Assembly (NCBI GenBank): GCA_003133245.1
Contig: PKWM01000021.1
Coordinates: 62,001-126,000, forward strand
Length of the DNA stretch: 64,000 bases
From: Rhodoferax sp.
GTDB lineage: Bacteria > Pseudomonadota > Gammaproteobacteria > Burkholderiales > Burkholderiaceae_C
Direction of reading: 5' to 3'
Shown: piece by piece, positions 37,913-47,153 of the stretch
Layout of the letters: each line of letters opens with the position of its first letter
Position numbering within the stretch: position 1 is the first letter of the stretch
Program-made: the position numbers and the translations under genes
The notes under the pieces: model-generated
Seen by the model: only the letters and a program-made list of their open reading frames with translations
The model's database searches: none
Told to the model about the DNA's origin: nothing

Positions 37913-39118
37913 ATGAAACCTGACTCTTTACCCATCTTCTCTGCCGCTAAAACGGCTGCTCCTGACTTGAAGGATTGGCCATTTTTGCGTCTGGGTTTTC
38001 GGCCTTTTTATCTTGGCGGCGCGCTGCTGGCAGTACTGATCGTGCCACTGTGGCTGGCCATGTTTTTGGGTTGGCTGCAACTCACACCCACGTCGCAGCC
38101 GCTGCTGTGGCATGTTCATGAAATGCTTTTTGGTTTTGCCGTGGCGATCATTGTTGGCTTTCTGCTGACCGCTGGTGCAAATTGGACCGGTCGGGCGACG
38201 CCGCGTGGGCCAACGCTGGCGGCGTTGGCTTTGTTGTGGCTGGCCGCGCGTGTGGCTTCGCTGAGCGGGCCTTACCTGGCGTATGCGTTGCTTGACATCG
38301 CGCTGCTGCCGGTCGTGGCGGGCATTCTGGTCAACATCTTGCTGCGTTCACGCAACTACCGCAATCTGCCTTTGGCTTTGATGCTGGCCTTGCTGGCGGT
38401 TGCCAACCTGGTGTTTCATCTGGCGGTGCTGGGGGTGTTGCAAGTGTTGCCGATGACGCCCATGTACGTTGGGCTGGCGCTGATTGTGCTGGTTGAATGT
38501 GTGATGGCTGGGCGCGTGATTCCGGCTTTTACCATGGCGGTTACGCCGGGGTTGAAATTGGTCGTTACGAAGTGGCTGGAGTGGCTCACCTTGAGCGTCA
38601 CCGCGCTGGGCTTGACACTGTGGGCCTTGGCACCGCCCAGTGTGGCAGGTTTTGCTGTATTGGGAATTGCTGCTGTGCTGCAAACCAAGCGCTTGCTGGG
38701 CTGGCAGCCTGGGTTGACCCTCAAGCGTCCGATTTTGTGGATCCTGCACGCCGCTTATGCATGGATACCGGTTGGCCTGGTGTTGTTGGCACTGACGCAG
38801 ATTGGCCTGATACCGGCCTCAGCGGGAATTCACGCGTTGACGGTTGGAGCTACCGGCGGCCTCATCATCGGCATGATCACGCGCACGGCACGCGGTCACA
38901 CCGGCCGGCCTTTGGCGGTGTCGCAGGCTGAAGTGTTGGCCTACGTCCTGGTGATGAGCGCGGCGTTGCTGCGCGTGTTGTTGCCCCTGATGGCGCCCTC
39001 GCTGCTGCTGTATTTTCTCGTTGCTGCGGCGCTGGCCTGGAGCTTTGCGTTTCTGATCTACCTGTGGCTATTCACGCCCTGGTTGCTGCGCACCCGGCTG
39101 GACGGCAAGGACGGTTAA
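37913..39118 (+). CDS. nnrS: NnrS-family NO-resistance membrane protein
   Basis: LRLGFRPFYLGGALLAV, LWHVHEMLFGFAVAIIVGFLLTAGANWTGRATP, GLIIGMITRTARGHTGR. Confidence 0.92.
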   Translation: MKPDSLPIFSAAKTAAPDLKDWPFLRLGFRPFYLGGALLAVLIVPLWLAMFLGWLQLTPTSQPLLWHVHEMLFGFAVAIIVGFLLTAGANWTGRATPRGPTLAALALLWLAARVASLSGPYLAYALLDIALLPVVAGILVNILLRSRNYRNLPLALMLALLAVANLVFHLAVLGVLQVLPMTPMYVGLALIVLVECVMAGRVIPAFTMAVTPGLKLVVTKWLEWLTLSVTALGLTLWALAPPSVAGFAVLGIAAVLQTKRLLGWQPGLTLKRPILWILHAAYAWIPVGLVLLALTQIGLIPASAGIHALTVGATGGLIIGMITRTARGHTGRPLAVSQAEVLAYVLVMSAALLRVLLPLMAPSLLLYFLVAAALAWSFAFLIYLWLFTPWLLRTRLDGKDG

Positions 39119-39247
39119 TTCCATTTCTAAATCACCCCTGTCGTTGTTGTCTAGCCTTGCCCTCCGTCGATGCCGACAGGCAGCAAAGGACAAGCAATAG
39201 GACTGCCTGCGGCTCGACGCCTAGACAGGAATGATTTGGAAATGGAA
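39119..39247. mobile_element. Putative MITE-like element, copy A (TTCC...GGAA ends, TAA direct repeats)
   Basis: About 24-bp imperfect terminal inverted repeats TTCCATTTCTAAATCACCCCTGTC / GACAGGAATGATTTGGAAATGGAA; flanked by TAA at 39116-39118 and 39248-39250. Confidence 0.6.
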
Positions 39248-39271
39248 TAAGCCTGGGCAGTCGGCAAGTTA

Positions 39272-40726
39272 ATGAACTATATTTCCCGTCAACAACTGAT
39301 TCCTGCAATGAACCCTCCCACATGGCTAGCTCGCAACGTTTCCAAATTGCTACCGACGGCCGGTAAAGCCAGTACCGTTGGCGCGCTGCGTTGCACCCAG
39401 GAGCGTCTGGCGACCACTTTGAGTCGCAAAGGAGAGGCGCTGTCGCCGCGTCAACTGCGACGTGTACTGGCTGACTTGCAGGGCGTCGCGGACAGCCAGG
39501 TCAGCGAGGTTGAAGGTGGGCAGCGTGCCATGGACTTTTCCCGCTGGTATGAAGCCGCCACGTCAGCGCAGAGGTGCGATTGCTGGCTTTTAATGAGTGA
39601 GCAGTTTGCGCCTGACCTGCAAAAAATTCAGGCGGCGCGCGAACCCTATGAAGCAGCCCAGAACACGCCCGATGCGGGGCCGGCCGAGATCAGGTTGCGC
39701 CAGGCGCTGGCGTCGCCGCGCACCCGCTTGTTGCAGCGTTTTGCGGTATTCCCGCAGGGCCTGCGTTTCTTGCTCGACCTGCGCGCCCAACTGTTGCCTC
39801 ACCTGAAAACCGAAAAACGCCTGCTGGCACTCGACAGCGAGCTTGAAAGCCTGTTCTCGACCTGGTTTGACGTCGCCTTCCTGGAACTGCGCCGCATCAA
39901 CTGGGACTCGCCCGCATCCTTGATTGAGAAGCTGATCCAGTACGAGGCCGTGCACGACATTCGCGGCTGGAACGATGTTAAAAACCGGCTTGATCCGGAT
40001 CGTCGCTGTTATGGTTTTTTTCATCCGCAATTGCCCAACGAACCGCTGATCTTTGTCGAGGTGGCGCTGCTTGATGATTTGCCTCAGGCGATCTCGCCGC
40101 TGCTCGACGAAGCGGCCGCTGCCGCCGATCTTGCCAAAGCCACCACCGCCATTTTCTACTCGATTAGCAACACCCAGACCGGTCTGCGGGGGGTGAGTTT
40201 TGGCGACTCGTTGATCAAGCGCGTGGTTGAAACGCTCAAGACCGAGTTTGCGCGTTTGAAGACTTTTGCCACGCTCTCGCCGATGCCCGGTTTTCGCGCC
40301 TGGCTGGGCAAGAATGCCTCAAGCATGCTGGACAAGCTCAATGCCAAAACCCGCGTTGCGCTGGCGCGCTCGCTGGGTGTAGAGACGGTGACGGCGGCCG
40401 ACTTGCTGGCGGCGGCTGAGCAGGCACTGGCGCTCGACACCAAATCGCCGCTGCGCCGTTTCTTGATGCAATGCGCAGCCCACTATCTGAGCCGGGAACT
40501 CGCAGGTGGCAAACCCGTTGATCCGGTGACGCGTTTCCACTTGAGCAACGGCGCGCGCATTGAACGGCTGAACTGGGGTGGTGACCTGAGCGCCAAAGGC
40601 TTCAAACAGTCTTACGGGATGATGGTCAATTACCTCTACGACCTCAAACGCCTGGACAAGTACCGCGCCCAATTTTCCAAAAGCAAAATCGCGGTGTCCA
40701 GTGCGATGGCCGACCTGGAATTTTGA
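39272..40726 (+). CDS. Malonyl-CoA decarboxylase
   Basis: MCD core: LIQYEAVHDIRGWNDVKNRLDPDRRCYGFFHPQLPNEPLIFVEVAL; FYSISNTQTGLRGVSFGDSLIKRVV; alternative ATG at 39308. Confidence 0.92.
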   Translation: MNYISRQQLIPAMNPPTWLARNVSKLLPTAGKASTVGALRCTQERLATTLSRKGEALSPRQLRRVLADLQGVADSQVSEVEGGQRAMDFSRWYEAATSAQRCDCWLLMSEQFAPDLQKIQAAREPYEAAQNTPDAGPAEIRLRQALASPRTRLLQRFAVFPQGLRFLLDLRAQLLPHLKTEKRLLALDSELESLFSTWFDVAFLELRRINWDSPASLIEKLIQYEAVHDIRGWNDVKNRLDPDRRCYGFFHPQLPNEPLIFVEVALLDDLPQAISPLLDEAAAAADLAKATTAIFYSISNTQTGLRGVSFGDSLIKRVVETLKTEFARLKTFATLSPMPGFRAWLGKNASSMLDKLNAKTRVALARSLGVETVTAADLLAAAEQALALDTKSPLRRFLMQCAAHYLSRELAGGKPVDPVTRFHLSNGARIERLNWGGDLSAKGFKQSYGMMVNYLYDLKRLDKYRAQFSKSKIAVSSAMADLEF

Positions 40727-45856: not shown

Positions 45857-45901
45857 GGGCGTTTGCCGGGATTTGGTCAGTTCAGCGCGAGTGGCCTCTC
45901 A

Positions 45902-46003
45902 TTCCGTTTCCAGTTCAATGCGAGATTAGGCGCACCGACGCAGACAGCACTTCAGGTGCGGCCAGGAGGTGTAACGACATATCGCTTTGAAATGGAAATG
46001 GAA
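45902..46003. mobile_element. Putative MITE-like element, copy B (TTCC...GGAA ends, TCA direct repeats)
   Basis: Imperfect inverted repeats TTCCGTTTCCAGTTCAATGCGAGAT / ATATCGCTTTGAAATGGAAATGGAA; flanked by TCA at 45899-45901 and 46004-46006. Confidence 0.6.
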
Positions 46004-47077
46004 TCAGATCACTGCCAAGGCGAGTTCCAACCCCGAGATGAAGGCATTTTCAATCCGGTGACCCAGGCACCAGTCGCCGCAAACGCCAATACCGCTGCTG
46101 GCATCCCATAGGTGTGATTGACCCAAAACCTCAGTGGTTTTGGCGTAAAGCCAGCGCTTGGTATCGACAAAGGTCGGTTCGGCGCGAATGCCGGTGACTT
46201 CGGCAAAAGCCTTCTGTAGCTTGGCCTGGACGCGGGCTGGATCGTCCTGCAGATGCTCTTGCGACCATGCCGCACTGGCTTGCACGGTCCAGCGTTCAAT
46301 CGTGCCGCGCCCCGGTTTGCTCGATTCGCGGGCCAGCCACGCAATGCGGTGGTGCGTGCTGCGAGCGGCATTCCACTGCGGCCCCAGGGAAGACAGATCG
46401 GGTTGCATCGCCTGCGGAAACGCCAGCATCAGCGTCCAGCAAGGAGCGGCGTCGACCCTGTCAATTTGCTGCCCCAGCGGGTCGGCTTGGGGCGAGGTCT
46501 CCAGTAGCAAGCGCGCTGGTTCCGCCGGAATTGCCAGCAGCACGGCGTCGAACCCTGAAAACACATGGTTTGCTTCACCCGGGCCATGGGTTCGGAGTTG
46601 CCATTGATGCAGGTTGAGGGTGTCGCGGTCAAGGTGGCTGACGCGGGTCTCCAACTCAACATTGTGTTGCGACATCAACGGCAATGCCCAGCGACTTACC
46701 AGCGCATTCATGCCGGGCGTGGGCACCCAATGCGTTTGGCCCGCTGGCAAACCGGCGGCGGCGACCCGCCCCTGCTCGTCGAGCACGCGCACGGTGTTGG
46801 CGCTCCAGGGTTTGCAAAGGCCGGGTACCGTTTGCAATGCGCGCTCAAAGCGCGGGTCACGCACGGTGAAATACTGCGCGCCGGTGTCAAACGCGCCAAA
46901 CGGACTGATGCGCGTGGCCATGCGTCCGCCGATGGCCTGGTTTTTTTCGAATACTGTCACCTGATGGCCAGCTTGTGCCAGAGTTCGCGCACATGTCACG
47001 CCTGCCATGCCAGCACCGATGACTGCAATCTTTTTGACTTTGGATTTGACGTCGGGTTTGGATTTCGAAGATTTCAT
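46004..47077 (-). CDS. NAD(P)/FAD-dependent (renalase-like) amine oxidoreductase
   Basis: IAVIGAGMAGVTCARTLAQAGHQVTVFEKNQAIGGRMATR; GVCGDWCLGHRIENAFISGLELA. Confidence 0.88.
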   Translation of the reverse strand: MKSSKSKPDVKSKVKKIAVIGAGMAGVTCARTLAQAGHQVTVFEKNQAIGGRMATRISPFGAFDTGAQYFTVRDPRFERALQTVPGLCKPWSANTVRVLDEQGRVAAAGLPAGQTHWVPTPGMNALVSRWALPLMSQHNVELETRVSHLDRDTLNLHQWQLRTHGPGEANHVFSGFDAVLLAIPAEPARLLLETSPQADPLGQQIDRVDAAPCWTLMLAFPQAMQPDLSSLGPQWNAARSTHHRIAWLARESSKPGRGTIERWTVQASAAWSQEHLQDDPARVQAKLQKAFAEVTGIRAEPTFVDTKRWLYAKTTEVLGQSHLWDASSGIGVCGDWCLGHRIENAFISGLELALAVI

Positions 47078-47153
47078 AAACGTTGTCTCCAGGGGTTGTT
47101 GCACACCTTGCACTTTACACGCCTCGGGCCTGTCAAGAAATAAGGTTTAAAAG

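Follow-up and report, generated by a model that had tools for sequence, protein, structure and literature searches.

A MITE family of Rhodoferax inserted preferentially at stop codons

The element behind nnrS and its family

The window analysed here is a 64,000-nucleotide stretch of DNA from Rhodoferax sp., in which an open reading frame at 37913-39118 encodes NnrS (Pfam PF05940, E 7e-105) and is followed by a short element, copy A, and then by a gene for malonyl-CoA decarboxylase (Table 1). Copy A starts with TTCCATTTC and ends with GAAATGGAA. TAA adjoins it on both sides, at 39116-39118 and 39248-39250, and the first of these is the stop codon of nnrS. An earlier note on this DNA had proposed a MITE-like element of 129 bp with imperfect inverted ends of about 24 bp, and this description is borne out, with arms that agree at 21 of 24 positions. 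The RNA fold of copy A has a z value of -6.6, and 0 of the shuffled sequences folded equally well. The segment from 38900 to 39500 gave 0 matches in Rfam at E values up to 1. An intrinsic terminator was ruled out by the absence of a T-run on both strands. An integron attC site, which was considered because attC sites follow stop codons, was ruled out by eye, since the ends and the TNA duplication (N being any base) do not fit.

Table 1. Positions of the two element copies and their neighbouring genes in the window
Feature	Position	Strand	Remarks
nnrS, target gene of copy A	37913..39118	+	Stop codon TAA at 39116-39118, which is the left target copy
MITE copy A	39119..39247	+	129-bp variant of the 99-bp family
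Left terminal inverted repeat, copy A	39119..39142	+	24 bp, 21/24 match to the right repeat
30-bp internal segment, copy A	39164..39193	+	Missing from the usual 99-bp form (alignment)
Right terminal inverted repeat, copy A	39224..39247	-	
Right copy of duplicated target TAA	39248..39250		
Malonyl-CoA decarboxylase, downstream gene	39272..40726	+	Pfam PF05292, PF17408
MITE copy B	45902..46003	-	Subfamily 2, 102 bp; TCA flanks at 45899-45901 and 46004-46006
Target gene of copy B	46004..47113	-	Stop TGA (minus strand, 46004-46006); putative nucleotide-binding flavoprotein-like, by eye

Other copies were looked for in the parent genome (2.94 Mb, 52 contigs) and found: four further close ones, making five with copy A, and several that are diverged, about a dozen in total. 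Most relatives are 99 bp long, and copy A is 30 bp longer than this common form. A covariance model trained on 27 copies detected the family in 63 of 90 congeneric (Rhodoferax) genomes, with up to 44 matches in each, a count that may be inflated where a nearly palindromic copy matches on both strands. Because the genome holds further copies and so many congeneric genomes carry the family, copy A is not a chance pattern. A collection scan found carriers which, among the matches listed, belong to Rhodoferax, Acidovorax, Alicycliphilus, Polaromonas, Giesbergeria and others; the plasmid and phage collections searched gave no match to the family.

These elements form a genuine MITE family of a known kind. 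They are short (99-129 bp), non-coding and bounded by terminal inverted repeats; they are accompanied by a target site duplication and occur as dispersed copies with empty sites in relatives; and their ends are held in common with an element of autonomous type, the match being limited to the ends and the genome's own copy of the larger element being interrupted. The diverged copies of the parent genome make up a second subfamily, which starts with TTCCATTTCCAGTTCAATGCGA. One of these, copy B, lies in the window, and its insertion point is precisely the stop codon that ends the minus-strand open reading frame at 46004-47113. Elsewhere, an internally deleted element of 66 bp (L046:1990-2055, G010:C1) has kept both ends, and the middle can evidently be lost.

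Target word, stop codons and empty sites

Removal of orthologous copies left a set of 164 independent insertions. The 3-bp TNA duplication, claimed by the earlier note from the TAA pair at copy A, proves to be general, and identical TNA is found on both sides at 103 of the 164 loci. C or G precedes TNA in about 82% of cases and follows it in about 80%, with the same proportions at stop codons and at other insertions, and the target word is therefore S-TNA-S, that is [C/G]TNA[G/C]. On insertion, the central TNA of this word is duplicated. A preference for the central base that is coupled to the orientation of the element was ruled out; the insertions away from stop codons show none, and their central base is unbiased.

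At 108 of the 164 loci (66%) a coding-like open reading frame has the flanking TNA as its stop codon, and it adjoins the left end in 82 cases, the right end in 25 and both ends in one. Under the rule used, TNA must end an open reading frame that spans 70 codons or more and has a GC pattern like that of coding DNA, all gene calls being uncurated and made from ORF length and GC pattern. As background, 20,090 further TNA words from the same DNA were put to this rule; it selects 5.7% of them, and 7.2% of the S-TNA-S sites. With a rough gene caller, 92 of the 164 insertions are at stop codons against 48-58 expected, an expectation which is conservative because the background count includes the hit sites. 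Eight target genes were sampled and have clear Pfam identities, including SmpB, Dcd, AccD and RlmH. Since the flanking trinucleotide is host sequence, the stop codon predates the insertion, and as both TAA and TGA fit TNA, the gene keeps a stop codon on insertion and the protein is unchanged. TAA is favoured over TGA (48:36 for insertions versus 16:78 for empty sites, OR 6.5). Across the genus, 31 of 49 copies of subfamily 2, a sample that includes a few orthologs, are at stop codons, 27 by the left end and 4 by the right.

The preference is sharp in position. When the stop codon was compared with TNA words 3-60 bp behind it, the ratio was 91:21 for insertions and 269:626 for empty sites (OR 10, p 1e-25). 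Such an excess might arise from selection only, if insertion were random at S-TNA-S words and copies survived mainly at stop codons, where they spare the gene, promoters, ribosome sites and terminators. Insertions in coding DNA have clearly been purged, small repeats tend to be enriched downstream of genes (PMC3049150) and selection does act, since the older-looking copies have a stronger orientation bias (see below). We nevertheless consider it rather unlikely that selection is the whole explanation. Sites a few bases past the stop codon should be just as harmless, and the excess remains at motif-matched sites between convergent genes. Between such genes an insertion threatens neither a promoter nor a ribosome site; at the S-TNA-S sites of these pairs, with subfamily 2 pooled with the main family, the ratio of stop codons to positions 3-60 bp downstream was 46:8 for insertions and 43:79 for empty sites (OR 10.6, p 5e-10). 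In addition, the excess is equal in consensus-like and diverged copies, the stop fraction being 0.69 in those closest to the consensus, 0.60 in the intermediate class and 0.69 in the farthest. A stop preference that rises with age was thus not seen, and the equal fraction in young and old copies favours targeting at the time of insertion. As a point against targeting, insertions slightly past a stop codon may be removed at once by strong selection.

Local sequence was also tried as the source of the preference and rejected; the preference for S-TNA-S is real, yet the excess survives motif matching. The stop codon preference is unusual and statistically strong, and it goes beyond local sequence and simple tolerance of insertions at gene ends. 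Searches of the open-access literature turned up no report of a MITE with exact targeting of stop codons.

Comparison with orthologous loci supports the view that copy A entered the nnrS stop codon and left the reading frame intact, as the earlier note had held: in each of the 29 other nnrS orthologs compared, the reading frame stops at the same ...GKDG* codon and no element follows. The predicted empty site would consist of a single TAA followed by GCCTGGGCAG. The left side of the clean empty site that was anticipated is supported by these orthologs; the test is one-sided because the malonyl-CoA decarboxylase neighbour is not conserved in them. Two-sided empty sites were found at other loci. 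Between tolQ and tolR, a carrier reads ...CACTGA-element-TAAACACAGTCAGAGGAG...ATG, and in relatives without the element the ribosome site and tolR come after a single TGA. Between rlmH and maf, the element is present in several species and absent from many, and one species has an apparent remnant of its right end.

The last junction provided two further observations. At the same rlmH stop codon, elements in several species (L364, L382, L385, L392) have ends that are diverged yet complementary, and these reflect either an old insertion that was inherited while selection acted on the hairpin, or several insertions at a single site. In other species the short rlmH-maf gap contains unrelated repeat-like sequence of 100-240 bp (L383, L384, L386-L389, L391), and the junction seems to collect small repeats.

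Orientation, hairpin and candidate mobiliser

The left end of the element is at the gene in a ratio of 82:25 overall. In a comparison by age, which uses both flanks, this ratio is 51:22 for copies with perfect duplications and 31:3 for those with imperfect ones (p 0.015). The orientation bias is therefore stronger in the older-looking copies, which suggests later selection for one orientation, and the two age comparisons, of stop fraction and of orientation, together give modest, indirect support for targeting with subsequent selection. Hairpin strength was ruled out as the origin of the bias, since the two strands of the 99-bp form fold alike, and so was the direction of the downstream gene, tandem and convergent neighbours being similar.

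The stem of the hairpin is conserved, with 97% of cells paired compared with 25-47% in slid controls, and 38 double changes compared with 4-12. These values raise the possibility of a domesticated 3'-end RNA element, in which the transcribed hairpin would stabilise or process the upstream mRNA and mobility would lie mostly in the past. The conservation of interior and stem with some compensatory changes, the link between orientation and the gene whose stop is used, and the rlmH-maf ends, which in several species have diverged and remain complementary, would all fit this idea, and at the rlmH stop codon selection on the hairpin is plausible from the sequences. The covariation is not specific, however, and does not prove an RNA function, because transposition also needs matching ends. 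Furthermore, presence and absence differ between species, the duplications are mostly intact and near-identical copies occupy many sites, so that the element is or was recently mobile. Domestication as the principal explanation is thus unlikely.

A full-length insertion sequence with the same ends was searched for, using the element-end sequence in six genomes, and near-identical ends were found on an IS630-family element. In the parent genome this element is 1139 bp long, has the ends TTCAATTTCTAATTCAT and TTCCATTTCTAATTCAC (L042:1218-2356; G000:C50:85717-86855) and encodes an interrupted IS630-family transposase (HTH_33, DDE_3, NF033545); no intact transposase was confirmed in that genome. 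The ends of the MITE and of the IS630-like element match at 15 of 17 bases, and the similarity spans only about 17-22 bp. Among the IS630-like relatives in the genus, TNA adjoins nearly every end, and a 1120-bp copy (G015:C446; L057:142-1261) has a TTA/TTA duplication. Some of these copies have two overlapping ORFs, an arrangement that suggests a frameshift. Judging from the ends and the TNA flanks, the MITE is probably mobilised in trans by an IS630-family transposase.

The earlier note had hinted instead at the IS1031 group of the IS5 family. Elements of the IS1031 group are reported to duplicate TNA, and the present family does so too, though this is not specific to that group; the end-pattern search of the six genomes led to the IS630 family, and an IS5/IS1031-group origin is very improbable. 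Studied IS630 members duplicate TA (PMC2170065), whereas the MITE duplicates TNA with any central base, and an IS630 group that duplicates TNA would itself be a variant. Further, 0 of 13 IS630-like ends examined were at stop codons, and the proposed mobiliser may therefore not share the stop bias; either the small element has a bias of its own or the sample is too small.

As a whole, the best explanation, to which we assign a probability of about 0.7, is that of a MITE moved in trans by an IS630-family transposase, with insertion biased to gene ends and with later selection on orientation. Copy A would then be one insertion of a non-autonomous DNA transposon (MITE). The insertion step itself would be biased towards gene ends, and possible cues are DNA exposed at translated or transcribed 3' ends, or a host factor. 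Copies with the left end towards the gene would subsequently be kept preferentially, the transcribed hairpin, which may affect the mRNA, perhaps being tolerated or useful in one orientation. More tentatively, it is possible that the insertion machinery recognises gene ends through transcription or translation of the target gene, beyond the local sequence, and that it duplicates the stop codon, which would make the insertion harmless.

Known systems and significance

RUP of pneumococcus, a 107-bp MITE, resembles the present family in its length, hairpin, IS630-Spn1-like ends and many dispersed copies (PMC2229807, PMC3049150). It differs in that its targets contain TA and that RUP itself was reported near IS elements, whereas the present family uses TNA and usually a stop codon. 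YPAL, or RU-2, of Yersinia is likewise a small palindromic mobile element, and YPAL transcripts join those of upstream genes. In the original YPAL paper, insertion reportedly occurs close behind stop codons. The duplications of YPAL / RU-2 are 3 to 26 bp long, its inverted repeats are internal and no exact targeting of stop codons is described (PMC2229807), and in each of these respects it differs from the present family. GTAG-type REPs (PMC3733652) and pneumococcal BOX elements (PMC3049150) abut genes and often supply the stop codon; there the stop comes from the repeat, whereas here the original stop is the duplicated target and the end of the protein is unchanged. ISY100 and IS630, which belong to the same transposase family as the full-length element that shares the MITE ends, duplicate TA (PMC2170065), in contrast to the TNA flanks of the present group and the TTA/TTA of one full-length copy. 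In kind, RUP is the closest mobile relative, and YPAL, GTAG REPs and BOX are the closest with respect to stop codon association.

Mobile DNA has to avoid killing its host, and safe insertion sites such as attTn7, the ends of tRNA genes and terminators are known. The element described here spreads without breaking genes. Insertion at a stop codon is the rule across the family, beyond the single case of nnrS, and a target word of three letters which can itself be a stop codon, combined with a strong extra preference for real stops, offers many safe sites per genome. Many unrelated genes also receive the same hairpin at their 3' ends. Should the preference operate during insertion, it would point to a hitherto unrecognised connection between a DDE transposase and the state of expression of its target.
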